A DNA stretch of 64,000 bases from Bacteroidales bacterium WCE2004 (GTDB lineage Bacteria; Bacteroidota; Bacteroidia; Bacteroidales; UBA932), in the NCBI GenBank assembly GCA_900167895.1, contig FUZR01000001.1:539144-603143 (forward strand), read 5' to 3'. The translations under genes were made by a program, and so were the position numbers. Positions 15,142-21,768 of the stretch are shown piece by piece (the stretch's first letter is position 1; each line of letters starts with the position of its first letter). The notes beneath the pieces are model-generated. The model did not search any database and was not told the DNA's origin. It worked only from the letters and a program-made list of their open reading frames with translations.

Positions 15142-16098
15142 CTACGCTTCAACTCGCCCTATCGAGGAAAGGAAAGATCTTTGTCTTGCTAAAGAATCCT
15201 CATAGGACAATGACAGCACAGGGAAATTCTCAACATGAAATGTTGTGGCCCACGCTGCGAGAAGAATTGTAATCATCTCTGTATATGAGTTTTTTTCTGA
15301 TTTAAGAATATCATAGAATGAGAACAATCTGTCATCCTCCCGAGGGTGAGGGAAGTTTTCATCAGGTGTCAACCCTGGATTAAAAAACAGAAGAGAGGTC
15401 AGCGCACAAATGCACCCCATCATAGCCGTGTTGCGCTGCTTTCCTTCCAAGTCATTCGATAAAGCCCAAAAGGCATTATGATCAGCTTCTATTTCTTCCT
15501 GTACCGTTCCTTTCTTCATCAAATCTTGGCCAAGAATGACGTGTGAGGCTTCATGTAATAATGTAAAAACAATCCCATAGACACAGAGACTATTAGCACT
15601 TATAGCAATTGGCGAATTATAATCAACGGCCCGAAGGATGTCATCAAATTCTTGCTGCGTCAAAGGATTGGCTGTTAAAAGCGGGCGCGCAATATCAATC
15701 AAACCCGAACAATACTTAACTGCCGACTCAAAGTCTGGGATATCACGAAGATAGCAATTACGCGAATTATCATCTTCAAGAGAATTCCGAAATGACACCC
15801 TTTCATCTTCAGTCAGCCCTTTAAACTTACTTTCCATCGCAATACTTTCGTGCACAATCAAACCAATATGGCACATTAGTAGAAGAAACTGGCAATAGGC
15901 CAAAGATAAATATACCTGCCCTTGCGGAGAGACAGAGGCTATCTCTGTATATGCTCCATCCCGATCTATCAATTGAATGTCATTCTTTAGACCATTTTCT
16001 ATCCCCCTATATAGGTCAACGGTCTGGGCTTCCGCTAATCTCTTTTGGACCGAATTCAGAAGAGCCTCGACCGGGAATGGATACAACGTCTTACTCAA
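15142..16098 (-). CDS. Lit-like HExxH peptidase (phage-exclusion type, peptidase U49-like)
   Basis: A 318-residue protein starting with TTG at 16098; a stop lies three codons upstream and no ATG occurs before residue 75. The zinc-peptidase motif HEASH is at 182-186 in VFTLLHEASHVILGQD, and a downstream EIEAD (202-206) offers the third ligand Glu204, the spacing seen in Lit-type (U49) peptidases. E. coli Lit cleaves EF-Tu during T4 infection and stops protein synthesis. Here the gene follows a PHP-ATPase and a 77-residue protein in the same direction, so it may be the effector of a three-gene system. The target is unknown, and assignment to Lit rests on motif and layout only. Confidence 0.65.
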   Translation of the reverse strand: MSKTLYPFPVEALLNSVQKRLAEAQTVDLYRGIENGLKNDIQLIDRDGAYTEIASVSPQGQVYLSLAYCQFLLLMCHIGLIVHESIAMESKFKGLTEDERVSFRNSLEDDNSRNCYLRDIPDFESAVKYCSGLIDIARPLLTANPLTQQEFDDILRAVDYNSPIAISANSLCVYGIVFTLLHEASHVILGQDLMKKGTVQEEIEADHNAFWALSNDLEGKQRNTAMMGCICALTSLLFFNPGLTPDENFPHPREDDRLFSFYDILKSEKNSYTEMITILLAAWATTFHVENFPVLSLSYEDSLARQRSFLSSIGRVEA

Positions 16099-16190
16099 AA
16101 TTCTTTATTTGATAAACACTTTTTCGACAACAGTAGTTACCCCATCAAAATACTTTTCGCATTACTCATGCAGACCATTATCCCAACAAA

Positions 16191-16424
16191 TCACACCTCT
16201 TCTATCTTCATACCGGAATCTACCGCTGTTTTAATCCTACTAAGCAATTCCTTCACCTTACAGACTTCCTCGTCATCAAGGTTCTCAAATACTGGTTCAT
16301 CAATCTCATTATTCTCTAAAAGTTGCCTTAGCATTTCAACGTAATCAAAACTCGTCCTTATTGTCCCTTTTTGAATATCAAGGACAATCTCTCCCTGCTC
16401 GTCTTTTTTAAAAAACAGCTTCAT
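16191..16424 (-). CDS. Small protein of unknown function in the PHP-ATPase/Lit-like cassette
   Basis: A 77-residue acidic protein I do not recognise. It begins KLFFKKDEQGEIVLDIQKG, which reads as paired beta strands, then a likely helix (FDYVEMLRQLLENNEIDE) and a second (EVCKVKELLSRIKTAV). Its ATG shares the last A of the upstream PHP-ATPase stop codon (TAATG), which indicates translational coupling and a 1:1 partner. The Lit-like peptidase follows 92 nt later. Candidate roles are adaptor, inhibitor of the peptidase, or sensor; nothing in the sequence decides between them. Confidence 0.7.
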   Translation of the reverse strand: MKLFFKKDEQGEIVLDIQKGTIRTSFDYVEMLRQLLENNEIDEPVFENLDDEEVCKVKELLSRIKTAVDSGMKIEEV

Positions 16425-18748
16425 TAATCCGTGAATTTTTTTAGGTTATACTTCTTCACCCGTTTCTTAATCGATGGTTTCCCCCCATCCGTAACTTTGG
16501 CAATCAAATCCAAAACAGGAATACCATCAAGACTACCTTCAAGAGAAGATGATTTAATGGTTATCATTCCATTCTCGTTTTTGCAATAAACTATGTTTTG
16601 TGCATCTGCCAACATTGGGATTGTAGCGTTATGTGATACGAGAATAATCTGTTTATGTGTTTTGGTCTTCTTTATAGCGCTAACAAGCCCTTCATTTATG
16701 TATGCGCTAGCAAGATTGTCTTCAGGTTGGTCAATAATAACCGGAACCATGTCTTTGTCGTAATCTAATACTAAATCAAGCAACACACTAGTCTTCCAAC
16801 CCGCACTCAAATCCTCAAAATCCCTATTGTCTCGAGTTTTTATCTTATAGAGTGTTCTATTCAACTTTGAGAACTTCTCAACTACCTTCTCGACAAACTC
16901 ATTGTAAGAAGTAATCTTGGGTGCCCTTTGCCTAAACTTAGAAAGGAACAATGAATCTGCTGTGATATTTGCAAAGCAAGATATTGCATCCGGTGTTTTC
17001 AGACATTCATTAAACGTTTCTAGCACCTTTTCTTTCGATAGATTGAAATGATTCTCAAGATACAAATGATGCCCCATAGATTCTATTTCCCTGGTTTCCA
17101 CCGTAATCGAATATGTAGAAATAGAATTCAGGATATCCTTGAATTGAAGCTGAAGCCTAATATACTTCGCTATGCTACCAAGCAGAAAATCTATGTTCGA
17201 ATTTTTTTGCTGATTCTCATAACTCTGCTCGCGGAGACAACCCTCATAGGACTCTTTAGCGGACCTAATTGTCTGATAAACGACCTCTTCAATTTCACTT
17301 ATAGAGAACAACCGTTTGAGTTCATTTTCTATCTCATTAATAGCCGCCTCATGTTCTGATGCGAAAGCATTCTGTTCAAATAAACGGCGAATATCTTCCA
17401 TCGCCGCTTGATGGCTCTCATACTTCCTCCTATCGTAACGAACACTTGAGCGCAACGCTGGTTGAGGCAGTAACCCACTTATAATATTCTTTTTTACTTC
17501 TCCTTTGATTATCAATCGGCCTACACTTGGGATCTTTCGAAGCGCCTCTTCAAGTTTCTCGATTTCTTCTACACAGCACATTAGATGTGTCACATCTTCT
17601 CGCAGCTTCGTTATGCCATCTCCTACTTTCCTCTTGAGTTCGGCATCCTCGGGGAAAACATTTCGTATTATTTCAATATTATCTATCCCCTTTTCAGAAT
17701 CCGGATCTATGATTTTTATAATATAATTCTGTGGAAGAAAATGTGGACGTGTAGAAGAAGGATTATAGACATCGATATTAGCCACACCGAATTTATTATA
17801 AGGTGAGTCCTCAAAAGAAATATCGCACAATTTCCTATAGATTGAGTCAACTAATAAGGTCTTACCACTTGAGGATCCCCCAATAATAACATTTAAACCA
17901 GGTGTTAAACGAATGTCTATATCTATACCATCACTCTTCAAATGAACACTCTTAATAAATTCAGACCAGGAATCCGGCTTTTCATTGGAATAGAAGAAAC
18001 GTGTTTTCTCGGAAAGAGACAATCGAAGCCCATCAAAAGTAGGCTCAGCAAACATCCACGTAGGAAGAAACGGGCTCGTGGACGGACGCTTCGCTTCCGG
18101 ATACTTCTTAGGGTCATAATTATCCGAACAAGTGACGAGATTCACAAATTCCGCTATACCTAATCGTTTAAAATACGCTACAGTCTCTTCCAAGCCCGAA
18201 TTACTCCTAGCTGTAAAGCCATCAAACTGATTATAATATACGCTTCGCATCAGCGTCGTATCAAACTTTGTACCGGCGGGAATAGAATCATTAAATGTCG
18301 AATGGGATTGCCCGCCATGAGGGAGTAAGATAAATTCGAAACTATCAAAAGCGTTAATTACATCACCTATAGATGGAATACTACTATCCATCTTACAAAC
18401 TTGTTTTCTCGGATAAAGGTTATCTAAAACAGCATTAATCTCATCAATGGTGCTCTCATTGATAGCACACTTAAAAATAATATGGCAATGATAAGCAGGG
18501 GCTTCTGGATAATTCTTTATATGTAACTCAGCACCTATCAGTAAATGAATATTCGAATTTGCATTTGCTAGAAGCGAAAGATATGCCGCTTTATTGACAG
18601 TATTATGATCGGTTAAAGAAATAAGAGCGTTACTTCCTTTCGCCATTCGCTCAACACCAGACAACAATACTCTAGTATCGTAGGACCCATTGAGCTCATC
18701 CGGGTTCTCCGAAGTATGGATATGAATATCAATATAAACAGGATCCAT
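16424..18748 (-). CDS. PHP-domain / ABC-type ATPase fusion protein
   Basis: A 774-residue two-domain protein. The N-terminal PHP (polymerase and histidinol phosphatase) domain keeps its metal motifs: HIH 9-11, TDHN 46-49, GAELH 72-76, HCH 87-89, LPHGG 142-146 and CSDN near 207-210, so phosphoesterase or nuclease activity is plausible. From about 280 there is an SMC/ABC-type ATPase: Walker A GGSSSGKT at 290-297, a central helical insertion (about 380-600), signature LSAGWKTS, Walker B VIIDQPEDN, and the switch histidine in ILVSHNA. This architecture occurs in proteins linked to phage defence. It is translationally coupled to the 77-residue gene and followed by a Lit-like peptidase. Its AT-rich sequence contrasts with the core genome. 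Confidence 0.85.
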   Translation of the reverse strand: MDPVYIDIHIHTSENPDELNGSYDTRVLLSGVERMAKGSNALISLTDHNTVNKAAYLSLLANANSNIHLLIGAELHIKNYPEAPAYHCHIIFKCAINESTIDEINAVLDNLYPRKQVCKMDSSIPSIGDVINAFDSFEFILLPHGGQSHSTFNDSIPAGTKFDTTLMRSVYYNQFDGFTARSNSGLEETVAYFKRLGIAEFVNLVTCSDNYDPKKYPEAKRPSTSPFLPTWMFAEPTFDGLRLSLSEKTRFFYSNEKPDSWSEFIKSVHLKSDGIDIDIRLTPGLNVIIGGSSSGKTLLVDSIYRKLCDISFEDSPYNKFGVANIDVYNPSSTRPHFLPQNYIIKIIDPDSEKGIDNIEIIRNVFPEDAELKRKVGDGITKLREDVTHLMCCVEEIEKLEEALRKIPSVGRLIIKGEVKKNIISGLLPQPALRSSVRYDRRKYESHQAAMEDIRRLFEQNAFASEHEAAINEIENELKRLFSISEIEEVVYQTIRSAKESYEGCLREQSYENQQKNSNIDFLLGSIAKYIRLQLQFKDILNSISTYSITVETREIESMGHHLYLENHFNLSKEKVLETFNECLKTPDAISCFANITADSLFLSKFRQRAPKITSYNEFVEKVVEKFSKLNRTLYKIKTRDNRDFEDLSAGWKTSVLLDLVLDYDKDMVPVIIDQPEDNLASAYINEGLVSAIKKTKTHKQIILVSHNATIPMLADAQNIVYCKNENGMITIKSSSLEGSLDGIPVLDLIAKVTDGGKPSIKKRVKKYNLKKFTD

Positions 18749-18853: not shown

Positions 18854-19258
18854 TTACTTCTCCCTCGAATACTGCCGCAGCATCGTGGAGGAGATGCCTT
18901 CGGTGCGGGTCAGCACCTTAACCACCTTGCCGTGCTCGGCGCACCACTGCTCGGCGCGCTGGAAGCCGGCGTGAACCTGGTCTTCGCCGCGCGCCAGAAT
19001 GTCGAAGTCAATCTTCTGGATGTCGATATCGACGTCTTTGTAGACCACCACCTCATCGACGTATTTGATGGTGCTGACCATGTAGACGCGCTCCTCGGTC
19101 GTGTACACCATCTTGGTGCCCGGCTTGTATTTGAGGATGTAATCGCCGTCCTGCACGGCCACGACGAGCCGGTCGCCCAGCTCTTTCGCCCGCTTGAAAA
19201 GTAATATATGACCTATGTGGAGCATATCGTATACTCCAAACGTAAGGACTGTCTTCAT
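18854..19258 (-). CDS. TagD-like cytidylyltransferase
   Basis: A 134-residue nucleotidyltransferase of the glycerol-3-phosphate cytidylyltransferase class. HIGH is at 14-17 in DMLHIGHILLF, and the end carries RTEGISSTMLRQ, the usual ISST-type motif. It would make a CDP-alcohol such as CDP-glycerol from CTP. The middle (ARGEDQVHAGFQRAEQWC) differs from classical TagD, so the alcohol is uncertain. It lies between the two defence-like cassettes and is more GC-rich than either, so it seems to be original polysaccharide-locus material left between inserts. LicD in the same locus is a logical user of its product. Confidence 0.86.
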   Translation of the reverse strand: MKTVLTFGVYDMLHIGHILLFKRAKELGDRLVVAVQDGDYILKYKPGTKMVYTTEERVYMVSTIKYVDEVVVYKDVDIDIQKIDFDILARGEDQVHAGFQRAEQWCAEHGKVVKVLTRTEGISSTMLRQYSREK

Positions 19259-19801: not shown

Positions 19802-20497
19802 TCATATAATGCACTTTACATGATCATCACCATAATTATTAGTCACCTGCAATGACATGGTTAGTTTCCTATTTGCAAGCGCTTCATTCAGCGGCATTCC
19901 CCACAGATCTGTCACATCACCAAGGGTCACATCTATAGTGTGTTTCTCGATAAGTCTGCGCAGGAATTTCCCTTCAAAAGAAGTGTTAGGAACAACTTCT
20001 GCTTTGCCTAAAAAATTATAAACACCATCTCTCTGGTTCGCGTCTTCAAAGCATTGACACGCTGCGATGAAATGCACCGATACTGTGTCTATGGAATAAC
20101 CTTTACACATTGACAGCATAGCATGCAGTTTAAGATACGAATGAACCATCTGTTCAAATGCTTCCGCTAAGTGTCGAGAACTAAACCGAGATTTTAATTC
20201 GGCAAGAATTATGCTATCATGTGTATTGTCAGACGCAAATACAATACCATCGCAGTCGTGGTCTTTTAACATACTACTACGCGTACTTGTTATATCTTTC
20301 ATCCCCTTCACCAATCTAAAATTAAAGGCTGTGAAAATAACACCGTTCTGCTCAACACGAAGTTGTGTCATTGGCACTGGAGAGCTCTTTGCGTCCTGCT
20401 CATTTATCACAAAGAAGCCATTTTCAGTCTGCATACCTGCAAAGGTCGGCCTAGAGGCCAGATCATACAACTTAGAAAAAGAGGTTATAAGACTCAT
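19802..20497 (-). CDS. Putative PD-(D/E)XK-type nuclease partnered with an ATPase
   Basis: A 231-residue protein of no family I can name. The segment 80-120 resembles a PD-(D/E)XK nuclease core: Asp83 in DCDGIVFAS, then Glu100-x-Lys102 in ILAELKSRF, followed by a helix with Gln (EAFEQMVHSYLKL). That strand-hairpin-strand-helix order is the usual one, but this is a motif-level call. The gene starts inside the stop codon of the upstream ATPase (ATGA at 20494-20497), so the two are co-translated. An ATPase plus nuclease pair in an AT-rich insert suggests an anti-phage or anti-plasmid role, by inference. Confidence 0.6.
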   Translation of the reverse strand: MSLITSFSKLYDLASRPTFAGMQTENGFFVINEQDAKSSPVPMTQLRVEQNGVIFTAFNFRLVKGMKDITSTRSSMLKDHDCDGIVFASDNTHDSIILAELKSRFSSRHLAEAFEQMVHSYLKLHAMLSMCKGYSIDTVSVHFIAACQCFEDANQRDGVYNFLGKAEVVPNTSFEGKFLRRLIEKHTIDVTLGDVTDLWGMPLNEALANRKLTMSLQVTNNYGDDHVKCII

Positions 20498-21768
20498 CGA
20501 TCTAACGCGGTTTCTAAAATGTCTCGGACTCTCATACCTTCTCGCACAGCATGGTTAAATGAGGAGAATGGGACGCCATTCTTCACATCTTGAAGGACAA
20601 CGCGAGAAGCCCCATCAGGCTGGCGAAGTAATAAATATGCGACCAAATCCTCTTCGTTTATACTAAAACCAGGGTTAATACCTGTCTCCGCCTGTAATTG
20701 GGCTATCTCGCTTGATTGGTGAGAATTCACAAAACGCTGAAACATAATCAGTTCATTAATGCGTTGCAAAAAATAATCACTGTGCGTTGTGAGATGGACA
20801 TGTGCCCCTACTTTACGTAAATAGCCAACAACGTCGGCCATCATGCGTTGCTTCTCTGGGTGAAGATGAGCCTCTGGTTCCTCGATGAGGATGGCTGTTC
20901 GACTAATATCCCAGCGACTGGCCAAGATCTGCAAAGGCGCAATTTCACGCACAGAAGCGGCAGCCGCAGAGATTGGCATACTTATCCCATTAGTTAAATA
21001 AACGTACCGATTATTCTCTTTTTTTACTTCACCTTCTATGATGGAGCGCAAACTGGCCAGTAAGGGTTCCGCTTTTGTATTAGGATTAGGCTGTACATTA
21101 CTAAGATCAACCACATCCGCAATGAAATCCTTATACATGCCGGAATTAGCAAGAACATTTTCACTGAGAACTGGTCCACGAGATGGGGGTAGATTAAAAG
21201 TACCGAGCAAAGCTTGTATGCTTCCAAAAAGACACAGACGAAGATAAGCGGCAAGAAGAATAGCATAAGGTGTAGTATCATTAATTGCGGAATGACTAGC
21301 ACGATAGCCAATATCACCGATACTCAAGATGATATCAACATCTTCGTTATTCACCAACCCCGTTATTTCTTCTCTATATTTTAAAACAATCCTGTCCGGG
21401 ACCGAGGCCGGAAGAGCAACACGAATCTTCCCTTCCAAAGTCTCGTTGTTCAGCATAAAACGCAGATAATACACTGCATCTTTTCCCATCCAGTCCTCAA
21501 TTTCTTTTTTTGTGATGGTTAAGGCCACACCTTCATCGTGAAAACCCTTTGCCATCTCCTTATAATCGTATTTCAAAAACTCGAACAGGTTTTGAAGTCG
21601 AGGATCACGATCAGGGAGGATGAGAATCTCATAGAAATAGTGCGCCAACAGAGCAAGGTAGCTCTTACCCATTCCTGACTCTCCGGAGAAAATCATAAAA
21701 GGAGCAATCTCTATAACTGAGTCTGTAACACGTCCCAGTTTCTGAATTTCCACTTTGATTCGTTCCAT
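20494..21768 (-). CDS. AAA/ABC-type ATPase of a two-gene cassette
   Basis: A 424-residue ATPase of the OLD/RecF-like (AAA_15/AAA_21) kind. Walker A GESGMGKS is at 29-36, Walker B with the double Glu in LIEEPEAHLHPEKQ at 294-307, and the switch histidine in LTTHSDYFL at 326-334. There is no long coiled coil; the insert between Walker A and B is about 250 residues. No Toprim nuclease domain is fused, unlike true OLD proteins; instead the next gene, overlapping by 4 nt, encodes a putative PD-(D/E)XK protein. This matches the general plan of ATPase-nuclease defence pairs such as Septu or Gabija, without being either as far as I can see. Confidence 0.82.
   Translation of the reverse strand: MERIKVEIQKLGRVTDSVIEIAPFMIFSGESGMGKSYLALLAHYFYEILILPDRDPRLQNLFEFLKYDYKEMAKGFHDEGVALTITKKEIEDWMGKDAVYYLRFMLNNETLEGKIRVALPASVPDRIVLKYREEITGLVNNEDVDIILSIGDIGYRASHSAINDTTPYAILLAAYLRLCLFGSIQALLGTFNLPPSRGPVLSENVLANSGMYKDFIADVVDLSNVQPNPNTKAEPLLASLRSIIEGEVKKENNRYVYLTNGISMPISAAAASVREIAPLQILASRWDISRTAILIEEPEAHLHPEKQRMMADVVGYLRKVGAHVHLTTHSDYFLQRINELIMFQRFVNSHQSSEIAQLQAETGINPGFSINEEDLVAYLLLRQPDGASRVVLQDVKNGVPFSSFNHAVREGMRVRDILETALDR

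Follow-up and report, generated by a model that had tools for sequence, protein, structure and literature searches.

A conserved gene pair of a PHP-ATPase and a small acidic protein, most likely anti-phage, next to a Lit-like peptidase gene in Bacteroidales bacterium WCE2004

The window, a stretch of 64,000 nucleotides from Bacteroidales bacterium WCE2004 (contig FUZR01000001.1, positions 539,144 to 603,143 of the forward strand), contains three adjacent open reading frames (ORFs) on the minus strand; all coordinates without a locus name below are those of the window. The first gene (16424-18748, minus strand) encodes a protein of 774 amino acids in which, judging from the ORF, profile matches, and the predicted structure, a PHP phosphoesterase domain is fused to an SMC/Rad50-type ATPase head (PHP-ATPase). 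The second gene (16191-16424, minus strand) encodes a small acidic protein of 77 amino acids, and the third (15142-16098, minus strand), which starts with TTG, encodes a Lit-like HExxH peptidase of 318 amino acids. The stop codon of the PHP-ATPase gene and the ATG of the small gene have one base in common (TAATG), in contrast to the gap of 92 bases between the small gene and the peptidase gene. The original prediction, made from the sequence alone, had read the three genes as one defense cassette; its three genes and the TAATG junction were borne out by the ORF coordinates. The PHP-ATPase gene and the small gene almost certainly form a real unit, and the peptidase gene is probably an independent neighbor that came to lie next to them in this genome.

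The conservation of the pair was examined in a collection of 84,980 species, each represented by one genome. A scan with an alignment of three ATPases as the query gave 48 loci; two of the queries come from genomes that are themselves represented among these loci (L045 and L063). The PHP-ATPase frame was found by phmmer in 46 of them; in the other two, the match spans only 44 residues or is at 28% identity. The end of the gene is missing in four of the 46, three of which end with the contig (L046, L061, and L075) and one of which is broken (L074), leaving 42 informative loci. The small gene adjoins the PHP-ATPase gene in all 42, with E-values of 2e-17 or lower against a profile grown from the window small protein, which its own member sequences match by construction. 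When the window small protein alone was used as the query, a search at E up to 1 recovered 36 of the 42, with E-values of 0.0048 for L059 and below 0.001 for the remaining 35; the other six loci were added by the profile. With the start codon taken as the one nearest to the PHP-ATPase stop, the small gene starts at −17 to +9 bases from this stop in 41 loci; the exception is L071, where the PHP-ATPase frame ends early. As named in the records, the 46 loci are mostly from Bacteroidota, and the others are from Patescibacteria (two), Cloacimonadota, Fusobacteria, Anaerolineaceae, Bacilli, Erysipelotrichaceae, Coriobacteriaceae, Spirochaetia, Sulfuricurvum, and Desulfobacula.

The two proteins also diverge together. 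There are 38 distinct small proteins among the 42 loci, and the pairwise distances of the PHP-ATPases follow those of the small proteins with a Mantel r of 0.887 (n = 38 pairs), a value reached in none of 5000 permutations, the highest of which gave 0.19. Among 295 genomes of the order, strong matches to the small family (E < 1e-20) are found only in the own genome and in G185, both of which carry a close ATPase; 11 further genomes give weak matches only (2.6e-4 to 0.0087), mostly within longer frames. Some relative of the PHP-ATPase occurs in 18 of the 295 genomes, being full-length at more than 50% identity only in the same two. The ATPase of G176 is full-length at 27% identity, and a gene for a 117-residue product occupies the small-gene position (L003:1130-1483); a relationship of this product to the small family was sought, and none was found. 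The presence of the pair is patchy (one of 61 genomes of the genus and two of 395 in a draw from the phylum). No member of the close ATPase family was found among viral contigs, and the ATPase matches in plasmids (528 records) and phages (six records) are partial and all fall short of 80% query coverage. The broken PHP-ATPase gene of Bacteroides muris (L074:8001-9941) lies directly after a type I restriction gene, and a frame that looks transposase-like by eye is present at the contig end.

Structures were predicted as single chains. The predicted structure of the PHP-ATPase and its fold matches indicate a PHP phosphoesterase domain at residues 1-257 (17978-18748, minus strand) joined to an SMC/Rad50-like ATPase head with a coiled-coil insert at residues 262-774 (16427-17965, minus strand), the latter being supported also by conservation. 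The fusion of a PHP domain with an SMC-like ATPase, as claimed in the original prediction, agrees with this model. By sequence, Pfam PHP matches ten of 25 family members, and the window copy is not among them. The conserved PHP residues are D7, H9, H11, D47, H48, E74, H76, H87, H89, H144, H149, and D209. The head of the window protein contains GGSSSGKT and IIIDQPEDNL, which we take to be the Walker A and Walker B motifs, respectively, and H706. All 42 aligned proteins have identical PHP motif residues and an invariant Walker A motif and DQPEDN box, except that one shortened frame lacks the first motifs.

The small partner is mostly acidic across the family: of 39 aligned proteins, 38 carry a negative net charge, which is −3 or lower in 37. 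Its predicted fold is β-β-β-α-β-α (predicted local distance difference test score 84.2, predicted template modeling score (pTM) 0.66), and no solved structural relative was found. Pfam matches over the 39 proteins are scattered, with at most three members per family, and the weak PADLOC match to AbiTi (0.0017) was not used in the interpretation. As far as these profiles can tell, the small partner fits no catalogued family. The C termini should also be mentioned. Nine of the 39 small partners (L055-L060, L062, L070, and L076), many of which look like close kin, end in Phe, and several have LF or LPF after acidic residues (e.g., SLF and LPF). The 117-residue product of G176 ends in NLPF, and the window small protein has no LF/LPF tail. 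These tails are reminiscent of clamp-binding or SSB tail motifs.

In having the PHP domain at the N terminus and an SMC-like ATPase after it, the PHP-ATPase is arranged like Ppl (NCBIfam NF042955, PADLOC PDLC02208), an anti-phage protein of E. coli, with which it has a C-terminal ATPase stretch in common (residues 634-765, 6.4e-22); the length of 774 residues compares with 882 positions in the Ppl model. Ppl is described in PMC12904381 as a nucleoside triphosphate-restrained single-stranded DNA 3'-5' exonuclease and a single-gene system, in contrast to the dedicated small partner at 42 of 42 loci here. The best profile for the PHP-ATPase is that of TrlF (NCBIfam NF045780; 212.4 bits, 1.7e-62), under its 350-bit cut-off. 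The TrlF profile matches all 25 family members, and the best E-value (2.9e-64) would correspond to about the same score as that of the window protein. The match to Spaf_1101 (NCBIfam NF045781) extends over residues 42-768 with 114.3 bits, far under the 475-bit cut-off. Matches to these three curated families were also obtained for the 24 further members that were scanned, and the pair thus appears from its profile matches to be a separate subfamily, a variant of the Ppl/TrlF kind rather than a new kind. Mre11-Rad50 (SbcCD) has a separate Mre11, whereas the phosphoesterase here is a PHP fold fused at the N terminus. In TrlF-type loci, the next gene encodes, by eye, an AlbA_2/Schlafen-like ATP-binding protein in 11 of 21 (L004, L006, L007, L011, L016-L018, and L020-L023), and the small gene is present in none of the 21. 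The AlbA_2/Schlafen-like gene would be a different constant partner on a different branch of the same superfamily. The sole TrlF-like protein aligned over the PHP part, that of L021, has lost some of the second PHP motif. No description of a PHP-ATPase with a small partner was found in the titles and abstract starts of open-licence literature, which is weak evidence of absence because the coverage is open-licence only and one query was swamped by an unrelated abbreviation.

The neighborhood of the pair is richer in defense genes than the control. Up to two genes of at least 100 amino acids on each side of the pair were taken, giving 130 proteins after the removal of four near-duplicate loci and of one protein with 1100 amino acids or more. 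The 130 control genes were randomly drawn from a pool of 174, which lie in 17 stretches from 17 of these genomes. At 1e-20, the neighbors match 199 PADLOC families and the controls four, although 199 is too high as a count of genes, since one protein is matched by many models. The defense genes among the neighbors include restriction, AbiL-type, Septu PtuA, and reverse-transcriptase genes. In a sample taken by eye, which is biased and consists mostly of genes adjoining the pair, eight of ten proteins are matched. The original prediction had placed a PHP-ATPase and its coupled small partner in a defense-like setting, and this claim is supported by these neighbors and by the informative loci.

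The pair, its co-divergence, its conserved active-site residues, and its defense-rich neighborhood are direct observations, the two-domain design is a prediction, and the pair is likely to function in defense. We consider it most likely, with moderate confidence, to be a two-gene anti-phage unit in which a gated nuclease would act on phage DNA and the small protein would be its obligate subunit. DNA is probably the target of the PHP-ATPase, which would be a nuclease related to Ppl; the trigger proposed here is taken by analogy from Ppl. The small acidic protein would be an obligate, co-translated subunit of the PHP-ATPase. As long as the cell is healthy, the PHP site would be held shut by the ATPase in its nucleotide-bound form together with the small subunit. 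Infection would deplete nucleotides or expose DNA ends, upon which the ATPase head would engage DNA, the restraint would be released, and the PHP domain would degrade the DNA. Relative to Ppl, part of the restraint or of the DNA loading would have moved to a dedicated subunit. That the small subunit restrains rather than activates is only slightly better than an even guess. A tiny partner that is constant, in the loci surveyed, across several phyla would give a direct handle on how such enzymes spare host DNA. A more specific version of the gated-nuclease proposal, in which the small proteins would constitute a new family of dedicated gating subunits that shut the PHP-SMC nuclease while nucleotides are plentiful and the members with LF/LPF tails dock it on the replication clamp or SSB, seems improbable; if true, the nuclease would watch DNA ends at the phage replication fork.

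Several points weigh against the gated-nuclease reading. The last PHP motif is usually D-x-H, and its histidine is a metal ligand. The original prediction had stated that all metal and Walker motifs are present; most of the PHP motif residues and the Walker motifs are indeed found, but the position of the last histidine is occupied by Tyr211 (codon at 18116-18118, minus strand) in 42 of 42 aligned proteins. Activity could therefore differ or be lost. The pTM of the PHP-ATPase model is 0.48, which makes the domain arrangement uncertain. The best Ppl match is confined to the C-terminal part, at 77.3 bits against a cut-off of 1000, and another paper, from 2026 (PMC13152194), presents Ppl as having no clearly described mechanism. 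Common host ancestry would raise the Mantel value too, and the pattern of sequence conservation cannot separate a restraining subunit from an activating one. The count of PADLOC families does not give the number of the 130 neighbors that are matched, and in a systematic sample of every thirteenth neighbor, three of ten are defense-like at 1e-10 (a type II restriction enzyme, PtuA, and a type I methylase).

The target may be other than DNA. PHP folds include phosphatases and RNases, the PHP domain of RNase AM is among the fold matches of the PHP-ATPase, and TrlF, not Ppl, is the nearest curated family by score, all of which would suit a PHP domain that acts on nucleotides or RNA and alters the pool or the transcripts of infected cells, with the small protein as an adaptor. 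We regard this as rather unlikely, since the highest Z among the PHP matches listed (14.7) belongs to EndoQ, a DNA enzyme, heads of the SMC/Rad50 type handle DNA, and PMC12904381 describes Ppl as an exonuclease for single-stranded DNA. The likeness of the head to SMC, RecN, and Rad50 would also be consistent with a host DNA-repair accessory rather than a defense system. However, a pair so rare and patchy in the genus, the order (two close copies), and the phylum, with restriction and other defense genes as its neighbors, is very unlikely to serve repair.

The remaining alternatives involve the peptidase. It matches Lit in PADLOC (2.6e-9) over HExxH and the surrounding stretch; the motif is HEASH (residues 182-186; 15541-15555, minus strand), of which the first His, the Glu, and the last His are kept in the relative at L081. 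The scores do not reach the curated cut-offs (33.3 bits against 274 for NCBIfam Lit and 16.2 against 23.9 for Pfam U49), and the peptidase is thus a distant relative of Lit, which qualifies the Lit-like assignment of the original prediction; EF-Tu cutting cannot be inferred from such a match. In the original prediction, the ATPase senses, the small protein adapts or restrains, and the peptidase kills or arrests as the effector. The three genes are adjacent on one strand here, and all are defense-like by sequence or context, but the peptidase is present in none of the 48 pair loci (search at E up to 1), leaving the last step of this relay without support. A relative occurs in one of 46 carrier genomes (34% over residues 168-295), on another contig and in a different defense-like operon, and no adjacent case was found in these genomes. 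The co-occurrence of the three genes elsewhere, which the original prediction offered as its own check, was thus not encountered within the scope of the search, and the trio as one conserved unit was set aside. That the trio is one defense system is, in our judgment, highly improbable. The case illustrates that same-strand neighbors can mimic one system though only two of three genes are linked.

The relatives of the peptidase found in these searches are few and their settings unrelated. A single-sequence search of the order found it in one of 295 genomes, its own, and a two-row profile found relatives in three of 395 genomes of the class, its own included; none was found in viral contigs, plasmids, or phages. 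In Bacteroides muris (L081:5995-9435, minus strand), AbiLi-like, AbiLii-like, Lit-like peptidase, and PD-Lambda-3_B-like genes follow in this order, the Lit-like gene overlapping the AbiLii-like and PD-Lambda-3_B-like genes (13- and 4-base overlaps). The relative in G904 sits among seemingly unrelated genes. That in G684 is broken, and OLD-like and UvrD-like genes (by eye, Gabija-like) are found a few genes away (L086:6320-13695). Given these varied settings, the peptidase looks like a module that occurs either alone or close to ATPase operons of several kinds. It might accordingly be a lineage-specific add-on effector, if Lit-like peptidases attach downstream of SMC/OLD-type ATPase operons and use them as sensors, and both its position here, 92 bases past the small gene and on the strand of the pair, and the Bacteroides muris operon, with its AbiLi-like ATPase, are compatible with this. 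We consider it unlikely, because no other pair locus carries the peptidase and only two such placements were seen, the G904 relative being in an unrelated-looking context and the G684 gene broken.

The three genes lie in a glycan locus. Downstream of the trio are a gene of the polysaccharide flippase type and one of the capsule-synthesis type, and a cytidylyltransferase-like gene (18854-19258; Pfam, 6.9e-20) is located upstream of the PHP-ATPase gene. The guanine-cytosine (GC) content of the glycan locus at 7-22 kb is 42.8%, compared with 62.4% for 22-63 kb. By gene, it is 43.4% for the flippase, 42.2% for the peptidase, 38.4% for the PHP-ATPase, and 37.6% for the small gene. The AT-richness pointed out in the original prediction is therefore real but not special to the trio: since the flippase gene and the whole 7-22 kb stretch are also AT-rich, low GC is a mark of the glycan locus and not only of the three genes. 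The PHP-ATPase gene and the small gene are slightly below the rest of the locus in GC. The same locus contains a second candidate defense pair (19802-21768, minus strand; PADLOC), in which a gene for a 424-residue ATPase like PD-T4-4_A (9.7e-26) overlaps a gene for a 231-residue protein with a weak match to PD-T4-4_B (0.025).

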